NCBI RefSeq assembly: GCF_000332135.1 | Contig: NZ_KB235896.1 | Location: forward strand, 3,181,321 to 3,245,320 | Reading direction: 5' to 3' | DNA from: Anabaena sp. PCC 7108 | Lineage (GTDB): Bacteria; Cyanobacteriota; Cyanobacteriia; Cyanobacteriales; Nostocaceae | Length of the DNA stretch: 64,000 bases | In this document: positions 8,085-50,664 of the stretch, piece after piece | Position numbering within the stretch: the stretch's first letter is position 1 | Layout of the letters: each line of letters begins with the position of its first letter | Position numbers and translations under genes: made by a program | Notes under the pieces: model-generated | What the model was told of the DNA's origin: nothing | Seen by the model: only the letters and a program-made list of their open reading frames with translations | Database searches by the model: none

Positions 8085-8428
8085 GTAAGGATTCAGGTCT
8101 AAATTTGAGGGATTAAATCCGGAGTCTGCACATTAGGATTAACCATAGCTTTAATGGCTTGATAGCGAAGCGCTCCGTAGGAATCAAAAAACTCAATGAC
8201 AGAACGTCTTTGACGACGACTTTTTTTGTATAACCGTCAATAAATTGGCAGTATCTTGAAACTGCTCCATTGAGCGGGAACCACCACTGACTTTTCGTTT
8301 TGTCACGGCTAAACGTAACGTTCGTTCAGCACTTTGAGCCACTGCACTATCTATTCGTTCATTTTCCATAATTGATATCTTCTGCTTCCCATATCACACT
8401 TGTCAACACCCCCGACCTGAATCCTTAC
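8085..8428 (-). mobile_element. Internally deleted insertion sequence with 15-bp terminal inverted repeats
   Basis: GTAAGGATTCAGGTC at 8085-8099 and its complement GACCTGAATCCTTAC at 8414-8428 are perfect terminal inverted repeats of a 344-bp element. Inside is the C-terminal remnant of a transposase read leftward. No clear target duplication flanks it. Its right terminus abuts the P450 stop codon (the TAG uses the last base of the repeat). A second copy of its left 137 bp lies at 50683-50819, on the far side of the peptide gene cluster. Confidence 0.8.
8099..8369 (-). pseudogene. Transposase C-terminal remnant (IS66-like), frameshifted
   Basis: Read leftward from ATG 8369, the first frame gives a segment containing AERTLRLAVTKRKVSGGSRS, close to the C-terminal pattern of IS66-type transposases (AEr.LRpaV..RKvs.G.RS). 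A frameshift near the T-run at about 8221-8228 moves the match to another frame that continues RRQRRSVIEFFDSYGALRYQ and ends PQI at the TAG at 8099-8101. The N-terminal and catalytic regions are absent, so the gene is dead. Family assignment rests on recalled motifs. Confidence 0.6.
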
Positions 8429-10032
8429 TATTTTCGCTCTTTGAAAAGTAGAGTTTGCTGATTATCCTCGTACACATCATTTGCCCTCTCATATTCCTGT
8501 CTAGTTTGAGAGCGACAAAGAAGAATTGCTTTTATATTTACCAGAGGTAATCTAATCCCAAAACATTTACTCAAGAGCGTGGATTGTCGCAAGCTAACAA
8601 TGAATAATTCTAGTTTAGTTCTGAATAAAACAGCAGAAGCTTCGGGCTTGGAGATAACTGCTTGATCTGAAACCTGCTGAATAGAAAATCTTTGCAAAAG
8701 CATAGGTAACATTAACTGTAGCTGGATCATAGCAAAATTCGCCCCAATACAACCCCTGGCTCCAACTCCAAATGGAATGTAAGCATAGCGTAAGTGTTGT
8801 TTTTCATTCTCAGGAGAGAATCGTTCTGGACAAAATTTCTCTGGTGCTGACCAAATTTCTTGGTTATTGTGTAAAGCAGAAATTGAAATGAAGAGTATAG
8901 TTCCTTTGGGTATGTGATAACCCGCTAGTTCAAAGTCCAAATCCACCTGTCGCATAGTCACAGAAGAGGGAGGATTTATTCGCATTGTTTCTTTAAGGAT
9001 TTGGTTCAAGTAGTCCAATGCTTTGAAATCCTCAGATTTTGGCAGTCTACAACCTATGACTCGATCCACTTCTGCCTGAGCCTGCGCTTGAATCTCAGGA
9101 TGTTGGGCAAGTATGTAGCAAGCTGAAGTAAGGGCTGCTGCTACTGCATCAAATCCACCAAATAGAAAGTTGATAATCGTTGCTCGAATTTCCTCTTTGG
9201 TAAACAAAGATTGACCTTGATCATCCTGATCTCGAAGGACTCGCGATAGAAAATCTGTTCTTTGATTTAAGTTTGCATCTTGCTTTCTTTGCTCAATCAA
9301 ATCATAAATACATTGATGTAGATGAGATACTGTTTTTTGCCAATCCCAATAACTGCGATCCCAAACCGCAGGAATAACTTCTTCAGTTCTGGGCTGCACA
9401 CCCTTGAGAACTTTAGTAAAGGATGCTGAGATTTCCTGTCCCAGATTAGAATTACTGAATTCTTCTCCGATTAAACAATCTCCTATAATCGTTAAAGAAA
9501 CTTGACTCAATTCATCTCTAACATCAATTGTTTGTCCACATTGGCTGGAAGTCCATCGATCTAATAGTCTAGTCATGTGTTTTTGTGTTGCTTCACGTAA
9601 GTAATCCAAAGTTTCTCCGGATAAGAGGCGCAACAATTTGATCTTGATAGACTTAGCTTCTTGGGGTTGTCTGAAAAAGTAAATTTCGTCCCCAATCCAG
9701 GTGAATGGTTGTTTGATTGAAATTGGCAAAGATTGTAAAGTTCCTGCTACTTCAGCAACGAGGGCTGGATCGCTAATCGAGACAATAAAATTTGAACTTC
9801 CCAACCATAATTTAGTAATTTTCCCATACTGGCTATGAAGCTTTGGCAAATAATTGGGAAAACCACCGACTTTTTCAAGATCGAGAATATTTCCTAGTAA
9901 AGGATCGCTAGGCGGACCAGGGATAACCTTGCCTTTATGGTGTAAAATCAGAATTTTTTGTATTCTTACACCTATCGATATTAATATACCTATAATGACT
10001 AAACCTAGAAGCACTGATGAACTGAAATTCAT
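8428..10032 (-). CDS. Cytochrome P450
   Basis: A 534-residue haem monooxygenase. The N-terminus carries a membrane-anchor-like helix (residues 5-22) followed by a proline-rich hinge (IPGPPSDP, about 36-43). ExxR lies in LKETMRINPP at about 350, and the haem-binding loop PFGVGARGCIG with the cysteine ligand is at about residue 430. The I-helix reads FGGFDAVAAAL: the usual threonine after the acidic residue is alanine, which is uncommon and may affect oxygen activation. The last 55 residues after FIVSLR are not P450-like, and the stop coincides with the edge of an IS remnant, so the natural C-terminus may have been altered. It is last in the leftward arm and probably oxidises the fatty chain or peptide; the substrate is inferred only. 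Confidence 0.88.
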   Translation of the reverse strand: MNFSSSVLLGLVIIGILISIGVRIQKILILHHKGKVIPGPPSDPLLGNILDLEKVGGFPNYLPKLHSQYGKITKLWLGSSNFIVSISDPALVAEVAGTLQSLPISIKQPFTWIGDEIYFFRQPQEAKSIKIKLLRLLSGETLDYLREATQKHMTRLLDRWTSSQCGQTIDVRDELSQVSLTIIGDCLIGEEFSNSNLGQEISASFTKVLKGVQPRTEEVIPAVWDRSYWDWQKTVSHLHQCIYDLIEQRKQDANLNQRTDFLSRVLRDQDDQGQSLFTKEEIRATIINFLFGGFDAVAAALTSACYILAQHPEIQAQAQAEVDRVIGCRLPKSEDFKALDYLNQILKETMRINPPSSVTMRQVDLDFELAGYHIPKGTILFISISALHNNQEIWSAPEKFCPERFSPENEKQHLRYAYIPFGVGARGCIGANFAMIQLQLMLPMLLQRFSIQQVSDQAVISKPEASAVLFRTKLELFIVSLRQSTLLSKCFGIRLPLVNIKAILLCRSQTRQEYERANDVYEDNQQTLLFKERK

Positions 10033-10137
10033 GAAATCTACCGAGTAAGTGAAAGAGTCTTAAGTAGTGTTAGTGTTAATCGGCTTATGGCTTCTACCTG
10101 GCGATCGCAAGTTACAAAGAATAAGCCAATTAAGTAA

Positions 10138-12210
10138 CTATCCGTTAGCCTGCATAAACAGCCCTGAAGAGATATCTAAAATTTCTCGCAACTTCAAATG
10201 ATCTGCGATCGCCGCTGGAGTGCGCCAAACAGGTCTCAGTTGACCCTGAACATAAAGCTGCAACTGGTCCCCAACGTGAGGCGAATGTGGTTGGGTGGCA
10301 TTACCGTAGATGGCTAGCGCTTCAGCACGAATCGGGTTAGTAAACTCGATTGCCATCATAAAAGAATTACCACCGAAGGCCTGAAAATTCTTTTCATCAA
10401 CAGGCATGATATCTACGACTTGAAAACTACCAAAGATACTACCCGCACCGCTACCGGGTAAATCCTGGTTCCCAATACGCAGTCTAACCACCTCTCCCCA
10501 AGCAACATCAAGGGTTCCATAGCGTGATTGAATATCCGCTGCAACTTCCTCAAGCACTGCGGTAGCGAACACAGGATCGATCAAGTCGCAAGGAGTCTCT
10601 AAGGGTAAATCACTTTGCCAAGGAGTTGCAAAGATATTATCTAGCCCCATTTTCTCAACCCATTGTATAAACAGAACTGTTCCGCAACTGTCTGCATTTG
10701 CATGGCGATCCCAAGATTCTAAAACCTTCACAGCTTGCATCCCCAGTTCGCTTCCGTGGGTTTTCACCGATGCAATCAGCCCATCGAGGATTCGGTCAGC
10801 CAGTTCCAAACGAGATGAAAACATAAACGCCACCATGTCATCAAAACTCATGGTGTCGCTGTTTAGCAATTTCCGAATCGAGCGCTGAGGACGCAGAATG
10901 TTGTGAGGCATTTTCCCTAAATTACTAGGCGCAATATAGAGGGGATAGTTTTCAGGCTTCAGCAATGTGGGAAATGTGACAGTCCAGGGTGAATCGTTAG
11001 TGTTCTGTAGCCACCCGCAAGCTGGATTCACCACACGAGGTAAATCCTCATAGGAATGGTATTCTGTCCACAAGGTATCAGATGTATTGCCAGGAATCAG
11101 TTTTTGCCAATAGTCCCAGTCCCCCTGATCCTGAGAGGATTTCGACCGTACTGGCACAAGGGCATTGAATAAATAAAAGATTTGCCCCTCTGTATCTGCG
11201 TAGAGAAAGTTGAACAATGGCAGCTGTAGTTGTTGCAAAGAAGCCTCGAATTGGCTGAGGTTCCTAGCATTAATCATCTCCCACATCTGTTCGAGCAAAT
11301 GGGGACGATCAAGACCTACCACCCGCAAGGCGATCGCCTTGGTTTCTGTTTGAGACACCACCGGACCATGAACAGACTGAACAACGACTAGCGGCTCTTC
11401 CTGCAAACTACCGTCTTCTTGTTTAATCTTTAACGTCTGTGACTCAACTTCAAAAGCGCGAATCTGATCATTCCATTCATAACCCCCATCCCTGAGAGAC
11501 AATTCGTAAAAGTCTGCCCCTTTGGTGGGATTAACTGTGACCGTCCATCCCAAATAATCGTTAAATGCAATGCCCAGCGTTGGCCACCCCACTAAAGCAG
11601 CGCCATAGGCACTCAAGGAAGGCATTGTCAACTGTGCTTCATACCAAAGAAATAAATCGAACCACGGCTGATGGGGATTGGCCAATAACATCGCCTTCTG
11701 ACTCGCTGAATGCTCTGGTGCGTTGATCGCCCAAGCATTAGATCCTGCCATCTGTTCTCCCTGGCTCAGAGTCGCGATCTGATTGGGGTTAACTACAAAG
11801 AAAAAGTGAATGACCCGTTGCACATGAGCCAGGATATCGACTGCCGATACAGGTAAAACAACTTTTAAGAACTCTGGAACCTCATCAGGATATGCTTGGA
11901 TATAGCCATTAATGCCATCAGCAAATGCGTTGAGGTATGTCCGCATCTGATCGCTCTGCGCCTCGTACCACTCCCCAGCACGCCGGGGAATCCCCATTGT
12001 GCGAACATATCTATCTGTATCAACATAATCTGTTCCCCAATACTCAGATGCACGTCCCCTTGCCTGCCCATACAGCATGAGAATTAGATTGCCATGGCTC
12101 TTGGCTTGCGCCCAACCCAGAGCATGGAATAGCTCAACTTCATTTCTGGCGTAAATATGGGGTACGCCCCAGCTATCCCACAGAATTTCGCTGACTTCAA
12201 ATTGTTGCAT
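10138..12210 (-). CDS. Penicillin amidase-family acylase (Ntn hydrolase)
   Basis: A 690-residue S45-family enzyme, close to full length. It opens with the alpha-chain signature (EILWDSWGVPHIYA) and has the self-cleavage point and new N-terminal nucleophile at GSNAWAIN (Ser at about residue 152), followed by KAMLLANPHQP. Unlike secreted penicillin acylases it has no signal peptide, so action in the cytoplasm is likely. Family members remove or exchange acyl groups on amides (penicillin G, acyl-homoserine lactones, lipopeptide tails). Encoded beside an NRPS that installs a fatty acyl starter, it may deacylate the peptide (maturation or self-protection) or cleave acyl signals. It lies 163 bp downstream of the sulfotransferase gene, with a palindromic repeat between, and 105 bp upstream of the P450 start. 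Confidence 0.88.
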   Translation of the reverse strand: MQQFEVSEILWDSWGVPHIYARNEVELFHALGWAQAKSHGNLILMLYGQARGRASEYWGTDYVDTDRYVRTMGIPRRAGEWYEAQSDQMRTYLNAFADGINGYIQAYPDEVPEFLKVVLPVSAVDILAHVQRVIHFFFVVNPNQIATLSQGEQMAGSNAWAINAPEHSASQKAMLLANPHQPWFDLFLWYEAQLTMPSLSAYGAALVGWPTLGIAFNDYLGWTVTVNPTKGADFYELSLRDGGYEWNDQIRAFEVESQTLKIKQEDGSLQEEPLVVVQSVHGPVVSQTETKAIALRVVGLDRPHLLEQMWEMINARNLSQFEASLQQLQLPLFNFLYADTEGQIFYLFNALVPVRSKSSQDQGDWDYWQKLIPGNTSDTLWTEYHSYEDLPRVVNPACGWLQNTNDSPWTVTFPTLLKPENYPLYIAPSNLGKMPHNILRPQRSIRKLLNSDTMSFDDMVAFMFSSRLELADRILDGLIASVKTHGSELGMQAVKVLESWDRHANADSCGTVLFIQWVEKMGLDNIFATPWQSDLPLETPCDLIDPVFATAVLEEVAADIQSRYGTLDVAWGEVVRLRIGNQDLPGSGAGSIFGSFQVVDIMPVDEKNFQAFGGNSFMMAIEFTNPIRAEALAIYGNATQPHSPHVGDQLQLYVQGQLRPVWRTPAAIADHLKLREILDISSGLFMQANG

Positions 12211-12230
12211 TTTAGATTCCCAATTATGTT

Positions 12231-12348
12231 AAATTTTTGGCGTTGCTGATTAAGAGTATGAATTTATTTCACGCAAAGTCGCAAAGGTACGAAGAAAAAC
12301 AAAGGTAATTTTGGCATTTCATACTTTGATTTAGCAACGCCAATTTTT
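12231..12348. repeat. GGCGTTGCT palindromic repeat, copy 2
   Basis: Ends are inverted repeats: AATTTTTGGCGTTGCTGAT and TTTAGCAACGCCAATTTTTT. An inner pair is AAGAGTATGAA and TTTCATACTTT. It fills the gap between the sulfotransferase and acylase genes and is closely related to the copy at 21866-21990, so the two bracket the NRPS1-sulfotransferase pair. Confidence 0.8.
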
Positions 12349-12373: not shown

Positions 12374-13129
12374 TCAGTAAAATAGGTCGCGATCGATCAA
12401 TTGAGACAACTTCTGCACTTCCTCGGCGTACTGGAATTGAAGTTGCTGTCTCAATTTTAGTTCCATCGCCTTCCCCTCGCGCTTATTGGAATTAACGATT
12501 TCAAAATCTGTGGTGAAATTAGCATCTACCCCTAAAAATTGCAAAACTTTTCGATAAGTTCCCGCAGTATCTTTCACAAAGTCATCATAGATCGTTAAGT
12601 GAATTTGGCTGTGATCGAAGACATCTAGATATCGTTGAATCTGCTGTGTAAAACTTGCTAATTCACTATATAGTAAGAGTTCTGTGGGATGGCAGCCAGG
12701 AGGAATTCGTTTACCTTGGCGGCGATCAGGTTCTGCTAGCAAGGCACTCTCAAAATCTTGAATATCTTCGTAGCCATAGAACACCAAATGACTGTGCAGC
12801 GAATACAAAAAGTCAACCGGATTCCTGAGCATAATCAGGATTTTAGCATGAGGGTTGAACTGATAAATCTCTCTGGCCGCAGTTTTAGACAGCATATACC
12901 AGACTGTGCCTTCCCCACATAGAAGTCCCTCGCCTGCTTTAAACAAGTCAAGATATTCTGAGAGAGTGTAGCTACGGTGCAACGGTTTCAGGCTGAGTAA
13001 ATCACCATCAAAGAAGTTAGGTTCCTTCGGTTTCGAGATATAAATAGCAGGGTGTCGATCAAGATATTGACACATCGCAGTTGTTGCACAGCGGGGCGCT
13101 CCAACTAAAAAAAAGTTAGGTTTATTCAT
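12374..13129 (-). CDS. PAPS-dependent sulfotransferase
   Basis: A 251-residue member of the sulfotransferase fold. The 5'-phosphosulfate loop is FFLVGAPRCATTAMCQYL at residues 6-23, the supporting KEPNFFD lies at about 36-42, and the 3'-phosphate loop region is ILIMLRNPVDFLYSLH at about 97-112. It would transfer sulfate from PAPS to a hydroxyl (or amine) of an acceptor. Its ATG lies inside the end of the NRPS1 gene (8-bp overlap), so the two are translationally coupled. The product peptide, possibly the Ser side chain, a hydroxylated fatty acid or a P450-made hydroxyl, is therefore the likely acceptor. It is shorter than many relatives, but both cofactor motifs are intact. Confidence 0.85.
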   Translation of the reverse strand: MNKPNFFLVGAPRCATTAMCQYLDRHPAIYISKPKEPNFFDGDLLSLKPLHRSYTLSEYLDLFKAGEGLLCGEGTVWYMLSKTAAREIYQFNPHAKILIMLRNPVDFLYSLHSHLVFYGYEDIQDFESALLAEPDRRQGKRIPPGCHPTELLLYSELASFTQQIQRYLDVFDHSQIHLTIYDDFVKDTAGTYRKVLQFLGVDANFTTDFEIVNSNKREGKAMELKLRQQLQFQYAEEVQKLSQLIDRDLFY

Positions 13130-16100
13130 GTCCGATCTGTTTAAATAAGACTTCTATTTCCTCTGGAGTCAAATTGTTCACTTCCAGAAATGTTTGAGCA
13201 ATTTCATCAACCTGGTTCTGACTTCCCAGCAGCTTGGCAAGTACAGTCTCTAGCTCTGCAATAGTTGGATTCATAAAAAGTTGCTGGAGTGATATTTCTG
13301 ACGAGAAAATTTGGTTGATTCGACTAAGCAATTGTGTTGCCAGCAAGGAATGTCCACCCAGATCAAAGAAGTTATCATGAATACTGACTTGAGGGAGGTG
13401 CAAAACTTCTGACCAGATATCTGCGAGAACTACTTCTGTTGATGTTTCCGGTGCAATGTAATTATTCTCGAAACTACTTCTGTCGGGAGTCGGCAATACT
13501 CGGCGATCAACTTTACCACTTGGGGTCAGAGGTAGAGTCTCCAGCATGACAAAAGCTGATGGTACCATGTACTCTGGCAATTTGGTTTTGAGATAGGTTC
13601 TCAGTTCTTGAGTGGTGAGAACTTGATTTGGTTTAGGAACAATGTAAGCGATCAGCCGCTTGTTTTCGGTAGGTTCCATGGTGGCGATCGCCACTGCTTC
13701 CAGGACATCAGGATGCTGCCCTAAAACAGCCTCAATTTCTGCCAGTTCAATCCGGAAGCCCCGAATCTTGACCTGGTTATCAATGCGACCTAAGTATTCT
13801 AGGACTCCATCTGCACGATAACGAGCGATATCTCCTGTTCGATACCAACGCCTACCAGTGGCTTGGCTAAAAGCATGAGCCGAGAACTTATCTGCCGTTA
13901 ACTCTGGACGATTGTAGTAACCTCTGGCCAGTCCAGTCCCCGCAATATAGATTTCTCCAGGTATCCCCACAGGTACTAGTTGCTGATTTCTATCCAGAAG
14001 GTAAACCTGAGTGTTAGCAATGGGACGACCAATAGGAGGAAATGTCACCCATTTGCTGGGGTTTCCGGTGAGATTGTAGGCTGTTGCTAAGTGGGTTTCT
14101 GTGGGGCCATAGTGATTCCACAAGGTACAATGCTCCAGTCGTTCAAAAAAGCGGGCGATCTCAGGTGTAATGCAGAGTTGCTCCCCCGCTGTAATCAAGT
14201 CTTGTAGCCCCTTGGGAACCTGATCGCGCTCAATTGCCACCTCAGCCAGTTGCTGTAGAACCACATAGGGAGCAAAGAAGCGTTTAATGCCAGCATCACT
14301 GAGAAATCTCAGTAGAAGGGTTGGGTCGCGCCTTGTCTGCTCTGGCACCAAAACGAGAGTTCCACCCTCGCACCAGGTAGCGAAAGTTTCTTGGACGGAA
14401 ACATCAAAGCTCAATGAGGCGAACTGGGCTGTTCTGGCGCTGCTAGGAGCGGTGACATTTTCAATTTGCCAGGAAATTAAATTGATTAAAGACTGGTGTT
14501 GCATGGCAACTCCTTTGGGGATACCAGTCGAGCCTGATGTATAGATGATGTAAGCTAAATTTTCACCTGTTGCCGGACATTCTGGGTTATCAACAGACTG
14601 TTGAGCGATGTCTGAGCGATCGCGATCCAAGTAAACAATCTCAAAAGTTGAGCTTGGCAAGGCGCTGGCCACATCAGTTTCTGTCACTAGCACCTTAACT
14701 TTGGCATCCTGGATGGAAAAAGCCAGACGTTCAGGGGGATAGGTCGGATCTAGGGGGACATAAGCACCCCCAGCTTTCAAAATACCCAGCAAACCAACAA
14801 ATCCGCTCAAGCTTCGCGAAACACATAATCCCACAGGTTCATCGGGCTGCACCTGAAGTTGTCGCAGATAGTGTGCTAACTGATTTGCACGGCTATTTAG
14901 TTCTCGATAAGTTAAATGTTCATCTCCCAATTCCAGCGCGACTCGATCAGGTGTTTTTGTTACCTGTTCTTCAAATAGCTGGTGGATACACTGAACCAGA
15001 TTAAAGGTAGACGGAGTGAAATTCCACTCCTGTAAAATCTGTTGCTCTTCTGTGGGACTGAGTATTTTAGCAGTCGCTACCATTTGTTGCGGTGCTATGA
15101 CCATTTCTGACAACAGCGTTTGCAAGTGACCGATTAAGCGCTGGATAGTTGTTCTATTGTAAAGATCCTGACTGTACTCGATAGTACCCACAAGCTGGGA
15201 ACCTCGTTCTTCCATGATTAGAGTCAGATCGAACTTAGTAGTGGCTGTATCAACCTCCAACCAGTCTAAGGTGACATCTGACAAATTCAGTTGCTCTCTA
15301 GGAGCATTTTGAAACACGAACATCACCTGAAACAGTGGATTATGGCTGAGACTGCGCTCTGGCTTGAGGATCTCTACCAACTTCTCAAACGGAATATCTT
15401 GGTGGGCATAGGCCTCCAAACAGGTTTGCTTCACCTGAGTCAACAACTCTTGAAATGAAAGCTGATCAAATAGATGAGTCCGTAGCACCAGGGTATTGAC
15501 AAAAAAGCCAATTATATCTTCTAGTTCCTGGCGATTTCGATTGGCAACTGGTGAACCCACCAGGATATCCTCTTGGCCGCTGTAGCGATATAACAGACTC
15601 ACAAAGGCAGTAAATAGCACCATGAAGACCGTTGCCCCAGATTGCCTAGCCAAGTCATGCAATTGCGCTGTTAAAGCTGGACTTAGTTCAAAGGATTCCT
15701 GTCCGCCACGAAAAGTTTGGACGGGAGGGCGGGGATAATCTGTTGGCAAGTCCAGTATATTAGTAGCGTCTGCCAATTGCTGTTTCCAGTAATCCACCTG
15801 GGCTGCTAGCTGTTCATTCTCTAACAACTGTTGTTGCCAAGCGGCAAAATCTACGTACTGAATCGGGAGAGGGGCTAGAGGTGAGTTAGCTTCGACCAAG
15901 AACGTCTGGTAAAGGGTAGACAGTTCTCGAATCATCACCCCAATCGACCAACCATCAGCAATAATGTGGTGCATGACCACCACTAGAATGTAGGATTGCC
16001 GTGCCAGACATAGCAATTTAAGACGTAGCAGAGGTTCTCGATCTAGGGAAAACGAGCCACAGGCGACTTCGGAAATGTGATGTTGTACGGCGATCGCTTG

Positions 16101-21695: not shown

Positions 21696-21865
21696 ACTTT
21701 CATTTTGAATAACGCGGCAGTAAGACTTTGCCCGATGGGCTACTAGCAGAGTAATGTTATTAGGGATTTCCAGAAAATAAATGCCCCATTTCATCAGACC
21801 ATATTTGTTCTTTATTCCCCCGGCTCCCGGCTCCCCTGCCTACCTCAGCAATGGAATATTTATTT

Positions 21866-25869: not shown

Positions 25870-25916
25870 GTCCGATAGGATGACATTTATGATTGAGTAT
25901 AATCGGGGAAACATCA

Positions 25917-44000: not shown

Positions 44001-46480
44001 TGGGCGTTGACTCAGAGAGTTTAGTGGGAATCTGTATGGAGCGATCGCCCGAATTGGTAATCGGGCTACTGGCGATTCTCAAGTCTGGGGGGGCTTATGT
44101 ACCAATCGATCCGAACTATCCCCAAGAACGTCAAACCTCGATTTTGAATGAAGCTCAGGTCAAAGTTGTGCTAAAGAGCTTATGTCAAGTGCCAGAGATC
44201 CCGAAATCAGGAATTCAGGTGGTTGACCTTGATCGCGCTCAAACTGAAATTGCCAGTCTTGCCAGTACCAATTTAGCCCAGCCCCTAACTAATCACCATT
44301 TAGCTTATGTCTTGTATACGTCAGGTTCCACCGGTTTACCCAAGGGAGTGGCAATTGAACATCGTAGTGTCGTAGCCTTTCTGCATTGGGCAAAAACAGT
44401 GTTCCCACCCAACCAACTGGATGGAGTCTTAGCCTCCACTTCCATTTGTTTTGATTTATCAATCTTCGAGTTATTTTTACCCCTAGTTTGCGGCGGTCAG
44501 GTAATCTTAGTGGAGAATGTACTCAAGTTAGCCACATTACCTGCAACAGAGACGGTGACTCTGGTAAACACAGTTCCCTCGGCAATGACAGAATTGCTCA
44601 ACATTAACGGTATCCCCGATTCCGTGCGGGTGATCAATTTGGCAGGTGAGCCGCTCTCGGCACAACTTGTACAACGCCTTTATCAGAGAGATTCTATTGC
44701 AGAGGTCTACAACTTGTATGGACCTTCGGAGGACACCACCTACTCCACGATGGCGCTGATGCCCAGAGATGGTGAGCGATCGCCTACTATTGGCAGGCCA
44801 ATCGCCAATACGCAAGCTTACGTCCTCGATCCATTCTTACAGCCCGTGCCTATTGGTGTCCCTGGTGAACTCTATCTTGGCGGTGCTGGTTTAGCCAGGG
44901 GATACCTTCACCGTCCAGAATTGACTGCCGCAGGATTTATTCCCCATCCCTTTAGTGATATTTCTGGGACACGGTTGTATAAAACAGGAGATTTAGTGCG
45001 CTATCGAGGCAATGGTGAATTGGAATATCTAGGTCGTCGCGATTACCTAGTGAAAATTCGGGGATTTCGGATTGAATTGGGAGAAATAGAGGCAGTATTG
45101 CGGCAAAATAGTCTGGTGCGAGAGACGGTTGTCGTTGTTTCTTCAGACAATCCCTCTGGAGAGAAGCAGATTGTTGCTTACGTTGTTCCCCAATCGTCAA
45201 CGCCCTCTCTCACCTATGACTTACGAAATTTTCTGCAAGAAAAATTGCCCAGCTATATGATACCTGCAACCTTGATTTTGCTAGAGACATTTCCTCTGAC
45301 CCCAAATGGCAAGATTGATCGGAAAGCGCTGCCAAAACCTAGCCTGAATTATACAGTGCGTGGAGACAAGAACTATGTTCCACCGCGATCGCCTCTGGAG
45401 TTACAACTTGTACACATCTGGGAGAGTGTGCTGGGTTTGGAGCCTGTGAGCGTGCAGGATAATTTCTTTGAAATCGGGGGGCATTCCTTACTTGCTGTGC
45501 GGTTGATGGCGGCAATACAGCAGCATTTTGGCTACGAACTGCCTCTATCGAGTTTATTTGTGGCACCGACTATTGAGCAACTGGCTCAACTACTGTCTGC
45601 TCAAACTGAAACCTCAATCGAGTCTGCGATCGTCAAAATCCAGCCGCTGGGTTCCAATCCCCCCTACTTCTGTGTTCCAGGTGTGGGTGGCAATGTACTC
45701 TACTTGTCCGATTTGGCTCGCCACCTAGATCCTTTGCAGCCATTCTATGGCTTTCAAGCTCAGGGGCTGTACGGGAAGCTCGATCCCCACACCAGCATTG
45801 AGGAAATGGCGCATAGTTACATTGAAGCGTTATGTCAAGTGCAACCCCAAGGTCCTTACTGGCTGGGAGGGCATTCCTTTGGGGGATGGGTGGCCTTCGA
45901 GATGGCACAACAACTCCAGCAACGTGGGCAGCCAGTAGCAATCCTCACAATTTTCGATGCTGTTGCTCCTAGTGCCGACAATTCTATGCTAGGCCATGAC
46001 TGGAATGATGCTCAGTGGTTGTTTGAGATGACTCAATTTTTAGAAGATAGCTATGGCAAGGAGTTAAGAGTATCCTATGATCACCTGCTTGCCCATAATT
46101 TGGAGACGCAAATCACCTATGTCATGCAGCGATTAAAAGAGGCTGATCTGCTGCCTGCGATCGCGGGAGCGGAGCAGATAGAACGACTATTAAGGGTGTT
46201 CAAAGCCAACTCTCAAATGCGCTATCTGCCTCAAACTCTTCACGGAACGCAGATTCACCTGTTCAGAGTTGATGAGAACTCACTGGAAAATGGTGATGGA
46301 GATAGTGCAAGCAAGAGTCGTCAAAATCCAACTTTAGGCTGGGAGAAACTCACAGATATCCCTGTTGTGGTTCATCCTGTTCCAGGAACTCATACATCAA
46401 TGATGGCGTTTCCCCATGTTCAGATATTGGCTAAATCTCTCCAATCTGTTTTAAAACAGTCTCAGATGAATATAACTTGA
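38045..46480 (+). CDS. NRPS 3: C*-A-MT(Asn-like)-PCP-C-A(Ala)-PCP-TE
   Basis: 2811 residues. The N-terminal C-like domain reads LVSLPALCADRVA at about 137-149 where HHxxxDG should be; both histidines are gone, so it is probably non-catalytic, and the terminal C of NRPS2 can supply the bond. A1 (TSGSTGKPKG at about 613) has pocket residues DATKVGEVGK, closest to the Asn code DLTKLGEVGK. A methyltransferase (VLEIGCGTGLL at about 990) interrupts it between A8 and A10 (NGKVDRRAL at about 1364), the position of N-methyltransferases. Then PCP (GLGGHSLLAT, 1417), C (HHIISDGWS, 1614), A2 (TSGSTGLPKG, 2091; pocket DLFNNALTYK, the Ala code known from McyA), PCP (IGGHSLLAV, 2477) and a type I thioesterase (GGHSFGGWVA, about 2608) that releases the peptide by hydrolysis or cyclisation. 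The stop overlaps a downstream TTG. Confidence 0.95.
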   Translation: MVQQTQNNFRTSPQQQRLWRLQNGQWQSTYQALGVVSIVGDLDINLLELSIKEVAERHEILRTILRCFPGMDLPLQVIESSRVRLQYADLKPNDPQDGDENFNTEVQAFISQKLDFEQDSPLQTRLLRKSFREHLLLVSLPALCADRVAIEKFVQEVGAEYGRQLHNGDLPADPWQYADLSEWLHDLLESDDTEYGREYWRKLAVPSLNPGRLAFEQGSLPSEEFTTDTVTLTLRAETIEQIDSVLYKYKTTCSVFLLTCWEVLLWWLTGQADLVIGVADDGRKYEELQDAIGLLTKYLPLCSKLDDTVQFSEHLVNVGKVAQELHKWQEYFSWEQVFAIEADRSTLLSYPYCFDFSELALPIKVDNAIFSIEQSDSCIERAKVRLSCTQTSQALVLKFHYDTSLYQEDTIKLLASQYQAFVEWVVHRPESCIGDIVFLGQTERQKLLKDLNNTQTDYPQDRCVHQLFEAQVHSTPNHIAVAFGNQFLTYQELNAQANQLAHYLQTQGVQPETLVAICLERSLKLVVGILGILKAGAAYIPLDPVYPQQRLADMLEDSQTLLLLTQHSLAPSFAEFGGKILCLDRDWESAIAHQTTNNLPSKVKPENLAYTIYTSGSTGKPKGVMIAHRNLVNYLSWCMQAYPIAQGCGSPVHSSISFDATITSFFTPLLCGKKVVLLPENQEIEALKEILCAERDFSLVKITPAHLDLLNQLLPEDEIAAQTQSFVIGGEALLGKSLRSWRQYAPTTRIVNEYGPSETVVGCCIYEVSEQTDLAGVVPIGRPIANTQIYILDAALNLVPTGIPGEIYIGGAGVGRGYRNRPDLTADKFIPDPFSEVPGSRLYRSGDLGRYLPSGDLEFLGRIDHQVKIRSFRIELGEIEAVLSQHPAVQEGVVTVREEKSDRYLVAYVVAKAESNNLVDQIDAWADQHICRWQTIYKDTYGQSPTHSDLTFNISGWNSSYTGSLLADIEMEEWVDRTVDRIRLLQPKQVLEIGCGTGLLLSRIAPQCLRYDGADFSPEAMHYLQLLKTTKSELAHVNLLNRTADDFSGFEPSLFDTVIINSVIQYFPNIDYLVKVLQQAVAVVQPGGHIFIGDVRSLPLLEAYHASVQLEQAAEDLSRELLQQRVRRRLLEEEELVIDPEFFLALQQHLPQIGAVQIQLKQGRFHNELTRFRYDVVLQVGTQWRSPAPIQWLDWSPLQMTPEQVSQQLAAQQPESLGIRGVVNARIQADLELLEWLTSAPAEAIVGDRDQFSAIQYQGIDPDLWWECVQDLPYAVTVTWSATKLGCYDVLFRYQKSQTTDIPLETIGTVTHSKPWEFYANNPLQNKLTQYLAPQLSQFVKDRLPDYMVPRTFILLSSLPLTTNGKVDRRALPVPSLSRDHTATYIAPQTDSEALLANLWAEILGVEQVGLEDNFFGLGGHSLLATQLISRIRDIFAVEMPVRSLFEAPTVASLHQKIELARHQNANISISPIPSAEYNSAAPLSFPQQRLWFLSQIEGANATYNMPAAVRITGYLNIDALNQSLQEIVQRHGTLRTTFKLMNGTPVQVLAEQMEPSLIIIDLQSLPAKEQATQVEQWIAEEAQSPFDLENGPLFRAKLLCLHPQEHIFLLTMHHIISDGWSIGILIREMTVLYKTFSQQSDSPLSPLPIQYIDFTQWQRQLLQGEVLERLLSYWQQQLTGIPALLNLPTDYPHPPVQTFRGDRIRFELSPELTRRLRELSQQRQTTLFMTLLAAFSTLLFRYSEQEDIVIGSPIANRTRSETEALIGFFVNTLVLRTQPSGKLSFLELLAQTKTVCLDAYAYQDIPFERLVEELKPERSLSHNPLFQVMFALQNAPVLDNLDLPNLILTPLQSENVTSMFDLSLLLEETKSQIVGAWEYSRDLFESETISRMVGHFQILLEAIVIDPHQQLAELPMLSEVERQQLLVAWNHTQSDYSETQSIHQLFETQVERTPDAIALSFEGTQISYSELNRRSNQLAHYLQTLGVDSESLVGICMERSPELVIGLLAILKSGGAYVPIDPNYPQERQTSILNEAQVKVVLKSLCQVPEIPKSGIQVVDLDRAQTEIASLASTNLAQPLTNHHLAYVLYTSGSTGLPKGVAIEHRSVVAFLHWAKTVFPPNQLDGVLASTSICFDLSIFELFLPLVCGGQVILVENVLKLATLPATETVTLVNTVPSAMTELLNINGIPDSVRVINLAGEPLSAQLVQRLYQRDSIAEVYNLYGPSEDTTYSTMALMPRDGERSPTIGRPIANTQAYVLDPFLQPVPIGVPGELYLGGAGLARGYLHRPELTAAGFIPHPFSDISGTRLYKTGDLVRYRGNGELEYLGRRDYLVKIRGFRIELGEIEAVLRQNSLVRETVVVVSSDNPSGEKQIVAYVVPQSSTPSLTYDLRNFLQEKLPSYMIPATLILLETFPLTPNGKIDRKALPKPSLNYTVRGDKNYVPPRSPLELQLVHIWESVLGLEPVSVQDNFFEIGGHSLLAVRLMAAIQQHFGYELPLSSLFVAPTIEQLAQLLSAQTETSIESAIVKIQPLGSNPPYFCVPGVGGNVLYLSDLARHLDPLQPFYGFQAQGLYGKLDPHTSIEEMAHSYIEALCQVQPQGPYWLGGHSFGGWVAFEMAQQLQQRGQPVAILTIFDAVAPSADNSMLGHDWNDAQWLFEMTQFLEDSYGKELRVSYDHLLAHNLETQITYVMQRLKEADLLPAIAGAEQIERLLRVFKANSQMRYLPQTLHGTQIHLFRVDENSLENGDGDSASKSRQNPTLGWEKLTDIPVVVHPVPGTHTSMMAFPHVQILAKSLQSVLKQSQMNIT

Positions 46481-46518
46481 GAGCAGAGCCGAAATTATGT
46501 ATTGGTCAAAACAAAATT

Positions 46519-47895
46519 ATGAATTTATCTGAGAGCGATCAGGCGAGTAATCACGATCTTCATTGGCGATTTTTTCGTTTAGCAATTGTCAATATTATCT
46601 CCAACATCATGATTCCCCTCGCTGGGCTAGTTGATGTCGCATTTTTAGGTCATTTGCCAGATATTCGACATTTTGCAGGTGTAGCTTTAGGAGGGATTTT
46701 ATTCAACTATCTTTATTCGACTTTTGGGTTTTTGCGTATGAGTACTACGGGACTCACAGCCCAAGCAGTAGGGCGCTCAGATTCAGAAAGTTTGTTGCTC
46801 ATCCTCTTGCGTAATACTCTGCTTGCACTCGTCTGTGGGATCGTCATTCTCTTGCTGCAAAAACCTCTGTGCCAGCTAGGCTTTGCGCTCCTAACGGCTA
46901 CTCCTGATGTAGAGTCGGCTGGACGTGCCTACTATGATGCGCGAATCTTAGCCGCGCCCGCCGCCCTAATTAACTTTGTCCTGCTTGGTTGGTTTCTTGG
47001 GCGCGAGGAAAGCGGTAAGGTTCTCTTGCTGTCAGCGATTAACAACGGCGCAAATGTTGTTCTGGATTACCTATTTATTATTGATTGGGGCTGGGAAAGT
47101 GCAGGTGCGGGTTTAGCCACAGCCGCAAGCCAATACTTAACTCTGCTGATCGGAATTGTTTTTGTCTGCTTAACGGGTTTGCTGAAGTTTGTGCCTGACA
47201 TTGGGGCCAAGATATTAGATAAAGAAGCACTTTTAGCAACGTTTAATCTGAATAGGGATCTCTTAATTCGGAACTTAACGTTCATTACAGTTTTCTCCCT
47301 GCTTACCGAACTGAGTTCAATATTTGGCACTCTGGAACTATCAGTGAATGTGTTGATTTTACGGGTAGTGACATTGGCTAGCTATTGTATTGATGGTTTC
47401 ACTTTCGCAACGGAAAGTTTGACCGGGATCTTTTTTGGTGAAAAAGCTTATAAAGATTTGAATTCTGTACTGCGACTTGCTTTGGGAACTGGGCTAGTAG
47501 CTAGCTTATTGTTTGCCGTCTGTTTTATAGTGTTTCCAGATACGTTGTTTGGAATTCTGACAAATCATACAGAAGTGACGGATCTAGCCCATAAGTATGT
47601 GTTGTGGTTGCTACCAGTTTTGGGATTTTCTGCCATTGCTTTAGTGTTCGATGGATATTTTCTGGGTTTAGCGAAGGGGGATATTTTACGGAACAGTGCT
47701 TTGCTCTCTGCGATCATTGGGTTTCTCCCCATCGCCTTGATGGCTTGGAAGTTTCACGATAGCCAATTTCTATGGCTTGGGGTTGTTTGTTTTATGGCTG
47801 CACGCTCAATTATAGCGGGGCTGCAAATACCTCAACTTCTGGAAGAATTTGCTGCCTCTGGGGCGGCGGATCAACAAGTTGTCATTGTGGAGTGA
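46519..47895 (+). CDS. MATE-family efflux transporter (DinF-like)
   Basis: About 458 residues from ATG 46519. A TTG at 46477 overlapping the NRPS3 stop would add 14 non-conserved residues. The protein is strongly hydrophobic with about 12 predicted membrane helices in two halves. NIISNIMIPLAGLVDVAFLGHL near the N-terminus and GFLRMSTTGLTAQAVGR match the start of DinF-type MATE proteins, and ESLTGIFFGEKAY lies in the second half. MATE proteins export cationic or amphipathic compounds using proton or sodium gradients. Position right after the releasing NRPS makes it the likely exporter or self-resistance pump for the peptide. Confidence 0.92.
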   Translation: MNLSESDQASNHDLHWRFFRLAIVNIISNIMIPLAGLVDVAFLGHLPDIRHFAGVALGGILFNYLYSTFGFLRMSTTGLTAQAVGRSDSESLLLILLRNTLLALVCGIVILLLQKPLCQLGFALLTATPDVESAGRAYYDARILAAPAALINFVLLGWFLGREESGKVLLLSAINNGANVVLDYLFIIDWGWESAGAGLATAASQYLTLLIGIVFVCLTGLLKFVPDIGAKILDKEALLATFNLNRDLLIRNLTFITVFSLLTELSSIFGTLELSVNVLILRVVTLASYCIDGFTFATESLTGIFFGEKAYKDLNSVLRLALGTGLVASLLFAVCFIVFPDTLFGILTNHTEVTDLAHKYVLWLLPVLGFSAIALVFDGYFLGLAKGDILRNSALLSAIIGFLPIALMAWKFHDSQFLWLGVVCFMAARSIIAGLQIPQLLEEFAASGAADQQVVIVE

Positions 47896-47921
47896 GAAGA
47901 CTGATGAGGAAGTATTTTACC

Positions 47922-48105
47922 GGTAAAGGCAGAGGGCAGGAGGCAGGAGGCAGAAGGAATGTCTCCTCTGCCCACGACTGAAAGGAGTAAGGGTATGAAG
48001 CCCCTCCCAAATCGAAAATTTGGGAGCTTCCGATTGGGAGGGGTCACAATCCCTTTCCAATTGGTTCCTTCTGCCCTCTGCCCTCTGCCTCCTGCCTTCT
48101 TGAAT
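47922..48105. repeat. Imperfect long inverted repeat with internal hairpin
   Basis: GGCAGAGGGCAGGAGGCAGG (from 47926) is answered by CTGCCTCCTGCCTTC near 48085-48100. Between them CCCCTCCC (about 48002-48009) pairs with GGGAGGGG (about 48036-48043). This fills most of the gap between the MATE gene and the next gene. It may act as a terminator or attenuator, but such repeats are also common filler in these genomes. Confidence 0.65.
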
Positions 48106-48111
48106 CAAAAT

Positions 48112-50034
48112 ATGACGATCCTGGGTACGGTTACTCAAAAGGAGCCGAGAGCAGGTATTTTTACAATTCTTTGTCGCAGTGAAGAAGAGTATCTCATTCA
48201 TGTTTCTCCTGTTACCCATTTTCAGGTTTTACCGCATCTTGATAGTTGCGATCGCGCCTACTTTCCGATCCCCGGTAATGTCTACAGTAGTTCCGAAGCC
48301 ACCCTGATTCAACGCTATATTTTTCTAGATAGATTAATTTATGTGCAAGGAATTTGGCAGGAACATCAAGGACAGAGTTGCTTTGAAGCTATTACCATTG
48401 TTTTACTGCAAGATATACAGGGGAATTTCCTTTTTGAAACCAATAATTGGTGGTTGAGCCAGACAACCTGTTTAGCAGACTCATGGCTGCAAAACCAACT
48501 TAGCCAGCAGCAAATAGATAATATTGCCATTAGTGGTAATTCTATCAACATCATTGGGCTACAAAATGATCAAAGTTTGCAGTCCTGTGCCTGGGTGTCG
48601 AGGTTAATCTATGGACTTTCTTCCAGTTATCTCTTGACGGGAAAGGATCGCTATCGCTTGGCGGCAAAAAACTGGATTGCATATCAACGAGAATATTTTC
48701 AAACTATCAGCCATGATCGTCAATCTTGCTTTTGGGCGTTTGGTAAGCGAGGTCGAGATTCGATTCTGGTTTCAGAGGTTAGTGAAGACCATCTTGGAAT
48801 TCCCCTTGCCGAACAAATTTGCGTCCTAGCGGGGTTGAGCCAATACTACCGCATTTCTCAAGATCCGGCAGTGTTTGAGGACATTCACCGCGCGATCGCT
48901 ACGTTTAATCAGTTATTTAAGGATACAAGTAGCGAGCAGGGTTATTTCTCCCACATTGACTACGCCACGCTGTCCTGCGATCAAAACCGCCTGGGACAAA
49001 ATAAGTTAAGGAAAAACTGGCACTCTAATGGCGAGCATATACCCGCGTATCTGATCGACCTGATTCTGGCCTTGGACTCGATGCCGACCCCAGCAAATGA
49101 AACTATTGGTGAACTTTATCACACCTGTATGGAGAATTTGGAGGCGATCGTTGAACTGTTGGTTAAGCGTTTTCCCGATCAGGACACTGAGGTTCCTTAC
49201 ATCAACGAGCGTTTTTACTATAATTGGATTCCCGATCGCAGTTGGGCATGGCAACAAAACCGTGCCATTATTGGTAACAATCTCCGAATGGCTTGGACGC
49301 TTTGCCGTGTTGCCAACTACTATCTCACAGTTGTCGCTCAATCAAAGCAAGCGGGAAAAGCTGAGATGGCGCAACGGTTCTCACAAAAGGCTGAACGGTT
49401 AATGAATCTAGCAGAGTCTTTGGCTGTGAAAATGATTCCCAAAGGGCTGGATTTACTGCGTGGTGGTGTATTCGATCTAGTTGAACGCGAACCAAAAAAC
49501 GGGCAACCTATTGAATTTGCTGGCAGCTATACCAAAGACGCTTGGCAGCAGGAGCAAGGTATTTTGGCGTACTTGATGTTATACGGTAGTACAGGAAAAT
49601 TTCTTTATCTTGACATTGCTCGTGAATTGTCCGCATTTTGGCATTTATTTTGTGTGTCTCATCACCCTAAAGGTATTTTCTTCCGAGTTGAAGCGGACGG
49701 ACGACCTACTGGAATTTTAGGCACCATCGATATTGGGTCTCCGGCTCGTTATCCCCTGTGGGAAATTAACTATTTAGGGCATATTTACACGCAACTCTAC
49801 TCTGGGGTTAAAGGTCAAGGGGGCTTCTGTCTTTATTTCAAGCCAGACCTCGATTTGACGCTCAACTCGATTAATGTTTTACCAGATTTTGTCAGACCTG
49901 GAATTCTTGAGATTAAGGCTTATTCTATCAATGGTATGCGGAAAATTCCGGAAAATCCTCGCAATTTTCAAATTGATCTCAGTCAGGAACCATCGGGTTG
50001 TGAGTTAGTAGTTGAGTTTCAAACTGTAAGGTAA
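48112..50034 (+). CDS. AGE-family (N-acylglucosamine 2-epimerase-like) protein
   Basis: About 640 residues from ATG 48112. The frame is open from 47959, but that part runs through a repeat and is unlikely to be translated. Residues about 150-580 look like an (alpha/alpha)6 barrel of the AGE/six-hairpin glycosidase type: aromatic-rich helices such as WIAYQREYF, GLSQYYRISQDP, RKNWHSNGEHIPAYLIDLIL and ELSAFWHLF. AGE proteins isomerise or epimerise sugars, and relatives are hydrolases. Nothing else in the cluster suggests a glycosylated product, so the substrate is open. A non-barrel N-terminal part of about 140 residues is unusual for a simple epimerase. The next gene starts 6 bp after the stop. 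Confidence 0.7.
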   Translation: MTILGTVTQKEPRAGIFTILCRSEEEYLIHVSPVTHFQVLPHLDSCDRAYFPIPGNVYSSSEATLIQRYIFLDRLIYVQGIWQEHQGQSCFEAITIVLLQDIQGNFLFETNNWWLSQTTCLADSWLQNQLSQQQIDNIAISGNSINIIGLQNDQSLQSCAWVSRLIYGLSSSYLLTGKDRYRLAAKNWIAYQREYFQTISHDRQSCFWAFGKRGRDSILVSEVSEDHLGIPLAEQICVLAGLSQYYRISQDPAVFEDIHRAIATFNQLFKDTSSEQGYFSHIDYATLSCDQNRLGQNKLRKNWHSNGEHIPAYLIDLILALDSMPTPANETIGELYHTCMENLEAIVELLVKRFPDQDTEVPYINERFYYNWIPDRSWAWQQNRAIIGNNLRMAWTLCRVANYYLTVVAQSKQAGKAEMAQRFSQKAERLMNLAESLAVKMIPKGLDLLRGGVFDLVEREPKNGQPIEFAGSYTKDAWQQEQGILAYLMLYGSTGKFLYLDIARELSAFWHLFCVSHHPKGIFFRVEADGRPTGILGTIDIGSPARYPLWEINYLGHIYTQLYSGVKGQGGFCLYFKPDLDLTLNSINVLPDFVRPGILEIKAYSINGMRKIPENPRNFQIDLSQEPSGCELVVEFQTVR

Positions 50035-50040
50035 AAATCA

Positions 50041-50664
50041 ATGAAGCAGAGGCTTTTGGGTAAAAAAATTGGGATTGTTGTGGAAAGTGAATTTCTAGCC
50101 GATGAAATAGAAGCTTACCGCGATCGCTTTACCGAACAGGGTGCGGAAGTTTGCTTTATGTCTCGCATCTGGAATCCACAAGGTGTACAAGCTTACTATA
50201 GCAATTCTCTGGAACCGGAAAATCGTCCTCAAGCATTAACAGTTAGGATTGATTTTCGGCGCGAAAATCCAGAAGACTATGCGGCTTTAATTATGGCATC
50301 TAGCTATGCCAGTGTGAGACTTCGCTATGTTGATAAGATGCCCATTAGCCAGATGACTCCTACCCTGGCTCGGAAAGCGCCAGCTTGCGAATTTTTTGCG
50401 CGCTCAATGATGAATCCGCAGATTGTCAAAGGGTTTCTTTGTCAAGGATTGTGGATTTTGACACCATATCCAGAACTATTAAAGGGGCGTTCAGTTATTT
50501 GTCACCAGGTTGTTTTAGCAGATGTGATCAATACGGGTGCTGTATTGTGTACTAATGAAGATGGTGTTGTTGTAGACAAGGATATAGTTACTGGATACTC
50601 TAAAGAAGAAGTAATGCTATTTATCGATCACATCATAGAGCAAATTGAGAAGATAGCTATCTAG
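50041..50664 (+). CDS. DJ-1/PfpI-family protein
   Basis: 207 residues. The flavodoxin-like fold of the class I glutamine-amidotransferase superfamily begins KKIGIVVESEFLADEIEAYRDRF. The nucleophile elbow reads GFLCQGLW at about residue 132 (family pattern ICHGPW, with Gln replacing His), and the C-terminal signature CHQVVLADVINTGAVL is followed by VVVDKDIVTGYS. Family members include proteases, glyoxalases, chaperones and isocyanide hydratases; the Cys is kept but the elbow change makes the activity hard to predict. It is translated in tandem with the AGE-like gene (6-bp gap) and is last in the rightward arm. Confidence 0.82.
   Translation: MKQRLLGKKIGIVVESEFLADEIEAYRDRFTEQGAEVCFMSRIWNPQGVQAYYSNSLEPENRPQALTVRIDFRRENPEDYAALIMASSYASVRLRYVDKMPISQMTPTLARKAPACEFFARSMMNPQIVKGFLCQGLWILTPYPELLKGRSVICHQVVLADVINTGAVLCTNEDGVVVDKDIVTGYSKEEVMLFIDHIIEQIEKIAI

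Follow-up and report, generated by a model that had tools for sequence, protein, structure and literature searches.

An orphan NRPS pathway in Anabaena sp. PCC 7108 predicted to make a 4-methylproline depsipeptide, with a predicted keto-acid module behind a dead adenylation domain

Introduction

Keto-acid-loading modules of nonribosomal peptide synthetases (NRPSs) have been described in several settings. StsA loads alpha-ketoisocaproate, and keto-acid recognition is marked by an aliphatic residue replacing Asp235 and by Gly-Met replacing Gly-Pro (PMC11253843). HapC of the hapalosin pathway, whose cluster is reported from Fischerella sp. PCC 9431, is described as C-A-KR-PCP with Val235 (PMC4558948). 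NocQ and ClyF, the lactylate synthetases of nocuolactylates and chlorosphaerolactylates, connect fatty acids with hydroxy acids (PMC12184294, PMC8406957) and are also described as depsipeptide synthetases (PMC12184294). For the depsipeptide modules of cryptophycin, hectochlorin, didemnin B and hectoramide, a 2024 paper leaves the role of the CAL domain open (PMC10949194). We analysed a 64,000-nucleotide stretch of the Anabaena sp. PCC 7108 genome, hereafter the window, which carries an apparently complete orphan NRPS pathway whose parts are all of known kinds and which includes such a keto-acid module.

The other parts have described counterparts as well. A Ser-methylproline block is described for nostopeptolide and nostocyclopeptide (PMC12184294), and a FAAL start with N-methyl-Asn and Pro for puwainaphycins and minutissamides (PMC4219810). 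Taken together, the assembly line seems to be a patchwork whose pieces are of nostopeptolide type, depsipeptide/lactylate type and siderophore type.

The cluster and its predicted product

The window (G000:C2:3181321-3245320, within a 5.9-Mb genome) holds a complete orphan cluster at 8428-50664, with three NRPS genes and tailoring genes identified from the list of open reading frames (ORFs) and Pfam. Its minus-strand arm has genes for a P450, an Ntn acylase and a sulfotransferase, then NRPS1 and a hydrolase of beta-lactamase fold. On the plus-strand arm are genes for an Fe/2-oxoglutarate (Fe/2OG) oxygenase, an alcohol dehydrogenase and a pyrroline-5-carboxylate reductase (P5CR), then NRPS2, a TauD gene, NRPS3, a MATE exporter, an uncharacterised conserved protein and a PfpI-like gene. 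Pfam scores of the large domains run from tens to hundreds of bits, so chance can be set aside as an explanation. The extracted A-domain codes are DVWHFSLVDK, DVQFIAHLAK, DATKVGEVGK and DLFNNALTYK, read as Ser, Pro-type, Asn and Ala in that order; code positions were assigned manually on the GrsA numbering. The first C domain of NRPS1 reads HHIAADL, which a strict HHxxxDG scan overlooks. An earlier note, made from the letters of this DNA, had named a FAAL-ACP start, Ser, Pro-type and Ala codes and a thioesterase, which the ORFs, Pfam and code extraction confirm; its oxygenase, NosE-like and NosF-like genes are likewise recovered as Pfam domains.

With moderate confidence, we read these genes as one five-residue line with the predicted core acyl-Ser-(4-MePro)-O-Lac-(N-Me-beta-OH-Asn)-Ala, where 4-MePro is 4-methylproline and Lac is lactate. 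To judge from the domains, the FAAL would load a fatty acid onto the ACP, after which module 1 would add Ser and module 2 would add 4-methylproline, which the LdoA-like oxygenase, NosE and NosF would build from leucine. In module 3 the AL, rather than the dead A before it, would activate an alpha-keto acid and the KR would reduce this to the alpha-hydroxy acid. The C domain at the front of the module would then link the hydroxy acid to methylproline as an ester. Module 4 would add N-methyl-Asn, which TauD, docked on a C domain lacking HHxxxDG, would beta-hydroxylate, as synteny suggests. Module 5 would add Ala and the TE would release the product as a ring or a chain. The P450 and sulfotransferase may decorate the product, and the acylase may later cleave the fatty acid.

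The cluster predicts an order of residues that we did not find among the listings of the searched papers, and its diagnostic residues should ease detection. The earlier note's description of the pathway as apparently undescribed is consistent with the titles and abstract beginnings of the open-licence papers listed in searches aimed at the compound, MIBiG lying outside this comparison. We consider it improbable that the product is already described under another name. None of the papers so listed names this residue order in its title or abstract start; the restriction to open-licence papers, with MIBiG outside, leaves some room for that explanation, as does the finding that the pathway extends beyond a single strain, since a 4.8-kb contig of a metagenome-assembled genome (MAG) labelled Microcoleus (L097) carries the AL-to-second-C part at 86-90% identity. 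The remainder of the cluster was not recovered in this MAG, where the best match to NRPS3 is 47%.

A predicted keto-acid module behind a dead adenylation domain

The hydroxy-acid module lies in NRPS2, whose features are:

28105..36537, plus strand: NRPS2, C - dead A - AL (putative keto-acid ligase) - KR - PCP - C (Pfam, motifs, StsA alignment)
29617..31134 (approximate bounds), plus strand: pseudo-A of NRPS2, a full-length A without the A3 P-loop and A5 (motif scan, tree)
31432..33144, plus strand: AL of NRPS2, a predicted StsA-like alpha-keto-acid adenylation domain (PDB matches, AL tree, pocket stretches)
33172..34440 (approximate bounds), plus strand: structural and catalytic KR of NRPS2 (Pfam, StsA alignment)

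NRPS2 thus holds two adenylating domains, the first of which lacks A3 (the P-loop) and A5. Pfam places the second, the AL, near FAAL types. Against PDB chains it scores 443 bits with StsA and 442 bits with McyG; besides a second StsA construct, the next chain is 3kxw at 157 bits, which we take to be a FAAL, and the first named fatty acyl-adenylate ligase reaches 134 bits. A second fatty-acid ligase was rejected on the difference between StsA and the next chain outside StsA and McyG. The AL-KR-carrier portion aligns with StsA (PDB 6ulw) at 792 bits, NRPS2 residues ~1092-2315 falling on chain residues 84-1304 of 1327. Because this homology, 1,224 query residues long (query 193-1416), runs almost end to end, the reading of this portion as an alpha-keto-acid module is well supported. 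A by-eye alignment to StsA also shows DHVVP and FGMAE in the AL, which match both keto-acid marks. While homologous along its length in adenylation domain, KR and carrier, StsA is a start module, whereas the window has an elongation module, in which a C domain and a full-length dead A come first. In work by Alonzo from 2020, a split pseudo-A reportedly surrounds the StsA core (flanking A and KR); in the window the pseudo-A upstream of the AL is clear, and the piece after the KR was judged by eye only. The earlier note had seen an A-KR-carrier module and inferred an alpha-hydroxy acid: the hydroxy acid is supported by the StsA homology, and the simple layout gives way to C, dead A, AL, KR and carrier.

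The same arrangement recurs elsewhere. A search of named genomes retained at least 78 loci, and a second search, covering 150 relatives, gave six full-length relatives in six genomes. We examined 81 AL modules and kept the 40 (window included) with an in-frame upstream C domain, excluding 41 without one in the fetched stretch, among them L031 and L052 with long stretches; the 40 are not independent, some being near copies. A3 and A5 are missing from the stretch before the AL in all 40 modules. The AL domains themselves hold A3 in 40/40, A5 in 38/40 and A10 in 40/40, and a control of 54 ordinary A domains from the same loci gave 54/54, 43/54 and 38/54, respectively. Since A3 and A5 are absent before every AL, the AL should be the domain that selects the keto acid. 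In 12 modules the upstream stretch is 557-616 residues long, and the window has the longest of all 40 (616). The Fischerella sp. PCC 9431 locus has the same C - dead A - AL - KR layout where HapC is expected, and this layout also occurs in a CrpD-like gene of Nostoc sp. ATCC 53789, presumably linked to cryptophycin. We infer that the published Val235 of HapC belongs to the AL pocket.

Several points weigh against this assignment. The StsA-style Gly-Met also occurs in FAALs and is hence non-specific. An A10-like lysine motif persists, under a looser pattern, in 10 of the 40 upstream stretches, although A10 is a weak control, being found in 38/54 ordinary A domains. In 28 of the 40 modules the upstream stretch spans 181-356 residues and could not accommodate a complete A domain, which leaves the 12 long stretches as the test of a full A. 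Finally, the Fischerella module is called HapC from strain and layout.

The opposite division of labour, in which the upstream A picks the keto acid and the CAL/AL idles, has been considered for hectoramide B: HcaB-A is modelled with the keto acid there, and the CAL “may be nonfunctional” or have “another role” (PMC10949194). We regard this as very improbable for the modules surveyed here, given that the P-loop is missing before the AL throughout while the AL keeps its own core motifs, that AL-KR-PCP is homologous to StsA nearly throughout, and that the match to the upstream A covers only about 86-185 residues in many modules. The CAL whose role the 2024 paper leaves open (PMC10949194) is probably the active part. 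The survey thus offers a directly testable answer on the CAL: the first A dead, and the CAL/AL active and perhaps exchangeable.

The predicted keto acid

Which keto acid the AL would load can be approached through its pocket. The window AL pocket stretches read DHVVPLLTCH, NAGEQVT and FGMAEVCTCMTY. Other types differ: HapC has DHVGGLVMFH with GMSETSSAV, CrpD-like domains DHVAGLIYFH, and the AerA type, so labelled by motif and organism, DHIGSISDWH. Closely similar, though not identical, pocket stretches occur in three loci (L038, L040, L042) and in the Tistrella pTM3 line. L042 is a FAAL - PKS (polyketide synthase) - [TubC docking, C, AL, KR, PCP, TE] cluster by Pfam, an architecture that would be expected for NocQ and ClyF. 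The Tistrella line has codes for Gln and Gln, then AL-KR, then Pro, then a module with a methyltransferase match; an AL-KR before Pro is presumably the Lac-Pro position of didemnins. Because the window pocket resembles those of lactylate-type and didemnin-line ligases, our best guess for the keto acid is pyruvate, which would probably give lactate.

The likeness has limits. The window AL is 61-62% identical to the ALs of L038, L040 and L042 and 44% identical to the Tistrella ligase, and the kinship of the three loci with NocQ/ClyF was assigned by architecture (L042 by Pfam, L038 and L040 by BLAST domain order). The L042 line also differs from the window: it is of FAAL-PKS type with a single NRPS module, and its dead-A remnant is shorter. 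What these architecture-assigned relatives of NocQ/ClyF share with the window is the similar pockets.

A branched or aromatic hydroxy acid (2-hydroxyisovalerate, leucic or phenyllactic) on the same line appears unlikely. It would find precedent in two relatives, HapC with 2-hydroxyisovalerate (PMC4558948) and AerA with phenyllactate (PMC10143770). A quick-method tree of 82 AL rows, however, divides into two deep clades of 25 and 57 rows (SH-aLRT 100 for each); the window AL falls in the first and the HapC, CrpD and AerA types in the second, and the four window pocket stretches are unlike those of these types. Clade and pocket stretches together led us to reject an AL of AerA (aromatic) type, and pyruvate remains the preferred substrate.

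Origin of the module

Trees of the dead A, AL and KR conflict, and the simplest reading of this conflict is repeated AL exchange within a dead-A/KR frame. In a tree with 47 ordinary A domains, the 12 full-length dead A domains group as a single clade (support 100/100; L031 is not in this tree) and share a P-loop gap, of 5 residues in seven and 9 in five. Across 12 full-length pairs, the ratio of nonsynonymous to synonymous substitution rates (dN/dS) is 0.15-0.30 for the dead A and 0.10-0.24 for the AL; it is higher for the dead A in every pair yet well below 1, with 22 pairs in total, the window not among them, and some dS values near saturation. The full-length dead A domains therefore look constrained. 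The window dead A sits in a three-row set with HapC and L074 (99/93), while its AL lies in the clade opposite HapC's. The AL clade of the window has nine cyanobacterial members, and these are scattered in the KR tree, with five changes forced by starred branches, and holding the nine together costs 202 log units (p-AU 0.0001; 34 of 79 rows).

Other observations count against such exchange. The branch of the window dead A is long (1.26), and it joins HapC alone with weak support (92/11). The AL tree is the quick one, and the 34 KR rows were hand-picked from the 79 after the all-row tree had been viewed. The tree conflict leaves open which part moved. In some pairs, moreover, dead A and AL stay together and the C domain diverges, as in L076/L077 with identities of 48% for C, 85% for the dead A and 88% for the AL.

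Hapalosin is one of the close described parallels. HapC, like the window module, is C - dead A - AL - KR - PCP with its dead A in the same three-row set; it differs in the AL clade, in its acid, 2-hydroxyisovalerate (PMC4558948), and in the presence of PKS modules. The window cluster does not match the hapalosin gene and domain order. On balance we lean slightly towards a general rule for C - A - CAL - KR modules, in which the first A is a conserved dead frame and the CAL/AL a keto-acid-selecting cartridge; the window module would then combine a lactylate-type pyruvate ligase with a hapalosin-type frame. If this is true, the placement of keto-acid choice in the first A of hectoramide B must be reversed, and AL swapping becomes an engineering rule for ester bonds in peptides.

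Modules of Moorena, Symploca and Okeania (L076, L077, L063, L066, L092) share a common dead-A type with the longer P-loop gap and are possible kin of HcaB. Two MAGs, with the labels Ignavibacteria (L046) and Poribacteria (L048), carry near-identical keto-acid modules, and a third, with the label Gammaproteobacteria (L045), has the same pocket stretches; some of these labels are probably binning errors.

The predicted 4-methylproline block

Upstream of the keto-acid module in the predicted line stand NRPS1 and three genes of the plus-strand arm:

13122..21794, minus strand: NRPS1, FAAL-ACP-C-A(Ser)-PCP-C-A(MePro-type)-PCP (Pfam domains, A codes, dimodule search)
19935..21677 (approximate bounds), minus strand: FAAL starter domain of NRPS1 (Pfam)
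16725..18182 (approximate bounds), minus strand: NRPS1 A1, Ser code DVWHFSLVDK (code extraction)
13500..15002 (approximate bounds), minus strand: NRPS1 A2, Pro/4-methylproline-type code DVQFIAHLAK (code extraction, relatives' codes)
25075..25869, plus strand: LdoA-like Fe/2OG leucine 5-hydroxylase candidate (Pfam WelO5 family, 34 bits; NosE neighbourhood)
25893..27023, plus strand: NosE-like zinc alcohol dehydrogenase (Pfam; neighbourhood)
27061..27879, plus strand: NosF-like pyrroline-5-carboxylate reductase (Pfam; TIGR00112 above cut-off)

In the window the oxygenase, alcohol dehydrogenase and P5CR genes are adjacent, as in a 4-methylproline gene set. Oxygenase homologues were found in 41 of 217 family genomes (E up to 1e-10), and among best matches a NosE homologue adjoins the oxygenase in 27 of the 29 non-window loci fetched. 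The NosF-like P5CR exceeds the TIGR00112 cut-off. The Ser-Pro dimodule of NRPS1 was searched in 208 genomes: of the best 11 non-window matches listed, ten lie within 30 kb of an LdoA-homologue oxygenase on the same contig (by eye), the exception (G224) having its oxygenase on another contig. The nearest Ser-Pro dimodules are 55-57% identical to NRPS1 and mostly near LdoA/NosE-like genes. Five fetched dimodules have the codes DVWHISLID and DVQ[IML][IV]A[QH]LA, the final K of relatives' codes being added by script. Code positions 8 and 9 are L-A in the window's DVQFIAHLAK and in all five dimodules; two other Pro-type codes have V-V (Tistrella, L146) and A-V (L102) there. Incorporation by module 2 of 4-methylproline made by the LdoA-like, NosE-like and NosF-like enzymes is strongly supported, and the earlier note's claim of this residue is supported by the adjoining genes, the linkage and the dimodule and code comparisons.

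Less favourable are two of the 29 loci, which lack NosE beside the oxygenase (L139 has NosF only, L142 a second oxygenase), and the name LdoA itself, which is assigned here by family and gene neighbourhood. The oxygenase carries HxD, not HxG (by eye), and matched no NCBIfam family.

Nostopeptolide and nostocyclopeptide share with the window a Ser module followed by a methylproline module, along with NosE/NosF. The window block differs in sitting directly after FAAL-ACP and in being followed by a hydroxy acid instead of Leu. PKS modules of the nostopeptolide/minutumamide type were not seen, as no ketosynthase or acyltransferase family passed the Pfam threshold in the three NRPS proteins; the KR-associated Beta-ketacyl_N is the sole PKS-like model matched there.

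The predicted N-methyl-beta-hydroxy-Asn module

Downstream of NRPS2 the line continues with:

36611..37645, plus strand: TauD-family beta-hydroxylase candidate (Pfam; synteny with C-like domain)
38045..46480, plus strand: NRPS3, C without HHxxxDG (interface-type) - A(Asn)-N-MT - PCP - C - A(Ala) - PCP - TE (Pfam, motifs, codes)
38072..39334, plus strand: NRPS3 C-like domain without HHxxxDG, paired with the TauD gene (synteny in TauD loci)

NRPS3 opens, directly after the TauD gene, with a C domain that lacks HHxxxDG, of the type called “interface domain”. TauD homologues occur in 126 of the 217 genomes (E up to 1e-40), and in 23 of 24 fetched non-window loci TauD stands directly before a C-like domain resembling that of NRPS3 (29-40% identical); the remaining locus, L168, ends before that domain. 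Searched in 386 phylum genomes, the C5-A region of NRPS3 matched in 84. Thirteen of 14 fetched non-window matches have TauD just upstream and HHxxxDG lost (by eye, as in the window), the exception being L191 with an ordinary C domain. This pairing of TauD with a C domain lacking HHxxxDG is the ground for proposing beta-hydroxylation.

The A codes beside TauD-paired C domains are Asn-like, Asp-like or other. DATKVGEVGK, from the N-methylating module, is one or two residues from its relatives' DLTKVGEVGK and DLTKIGEVGK, which we take to be Asn codes, and identical to the code of a C-A-MT module in L191. The module 4 residue is most likely N-methyl-beta-hydroxy-Asn. The earlier note's N-methyl Asx-like residue is thereby narrowed to Asn, by the code with its inserted methyltransferase, and most likely gains a hydroxyl through the TauD pairing.

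With puwainaphycins and minutissamides the window shares the FAAL start, N-methyl-Asn and Pro; those compounds are ten-membered rings with a beta-amino fatty acid and, unlike the window's predicted product, are not known to have an ester hydroxy acid. A C-TauD-C-A(Asp) arrangement is reported for potashchelins (PMC7100376), and the lipid siderophores potashchelins and cyanochelins share C - TauD - C - A(Asx) with the window (PMC7100376, PMC12628792). They differ from it in that the window has an Asn code, an N-methyltransferase and no siderophore transport family among the scanned ORFs.

The acylase and the fatty acid

Three tailoring candidates of the minus-strand arm are:

8428..10032, minus strand: cytochrome P450, putative tailoring enzyme (Pfam p450, 297 bits)
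10138..12210, minus strand: Ntn-hydrolase acylase, cephalosporin-acylase-like, candidate fatty-acyl remover (Pfam 428 bits; PDB cephalosporin acylase 550 bits)
12374..13129, minus strand: sulfotransferase, its start overlapping the NRPS1 3' end by 8 bases (Pfam Sulfotransfer_3, 52 bits)

PvdQ removes a temporary fatty acid in pyoverdine biosynthesis, and by analogy the window acylase may remove one from the product here. Against PDB the acylase scores 550 bits with cephalosporin acylase and 166 bits with PvdQ. Identity as PvdQ itself was rejected at 193.7 bits versus the NCBIfam equivalog cut-off of 950 bits, which counts against the analogy. Acylase homologues occur in 145 of the 217 genomes (E up to 1e-60). 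Among the matches listed, 95 genomes have both acylase and TauD, on the same contig in 61 and on different contigs in 34. The two lie within 60 kb of each other in 54 of the 61 same-contig genomes, and in 17 of the 23 whose shared contig extends past 1 Mb; both counts include the window. In three neighbourhoods (G216, G050, G037) a FAAL also lies near acylase/TauD; G216 has a TonB receptor and G050 two FecCD permeases and a binding protein.

It is conceivable, though we do not favour it, that the fatty acyl group is temporary and the final product a short deacylated peptide, possibly metal-binding. The recurrent closeness of acylase and TauD and the siderophore transport genes in the two FAAL-bearing neighbourhoods G216 and G050 speak for this. 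In the window, however, Pfam found no TonB receptor, FecCD or binding-protein family in the 31 ORFs scanned, on which ground classification as a siderophore was rejected; the A code points to Asn rather than Asp, and the usual beta-OH-Asp chelator is accordingly not predicted; and no signal peptide was evident by eye. We retain an acylated product as the working structure. Of the earlier note's fatty-acyl product, the FAAL start stands, and the permanence of the acyl group is weakened by how often the acylase is near TauD genes in other genomes. That frequent closeness raises a testable idea, namely that maturation of some cyanobacterial lipopeptides may include deacylation.

Other features of the window

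The remaining genes of the cluster are:

22320..23711, minus strand: beta-lactamase-fold serine hydrolase (Pfam 183 bits; PDB best 107 bits)
46477..47895, plus strand: MATE exporter (Pfam)
48112..50034, plus strand: conserved protein, no Pfam family over cut-off (homologue search; listed ORF start 47959 probably wrong)
50041..50664, plus strand: PfpI/DJ-1-family protein (Pfam)

The beta-lactamase-fold protein (P0007) was considered as a PBP-type thioesterase; we did not adopt this, its best PDB matches being a Pbp-related beta-lactamase and Flp, with ClbP at 63 bits. A 166-nt tandem duplication (98% identical) at 24229-24560 lies between the divergent arms, possibly in a promoter region.

A repeat with 34-nt inverted arms occupies 47926-48100, between the MATE gene and a 691-aa gene, and a translated stretch of it has four further copies in the genome (91-96%). 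The 691-aa ORF at 47959 probably starts ~50 codons too early, within this dispersed repeat. The 691-aa ORF has a match in 88 of the 217 family genomes, some to the repeat only, and the protein at 48112-50034 has a weak GlcNAc-epimerase-like match (E 0.0077).

Beyond the cluster, a run of plus-strand genes at 52400-57933 has no Pfam family over cut-off, and a 666-aa protein within it has a weak JetC/MukB-like match (E 1.3e-4); a condensin-like or defence operon is possible. A 565-aa protein at 59645-61342 gives weak coupling-protein-like ATPase matches, and an ASCH-domain gene lies nearby at 62749.

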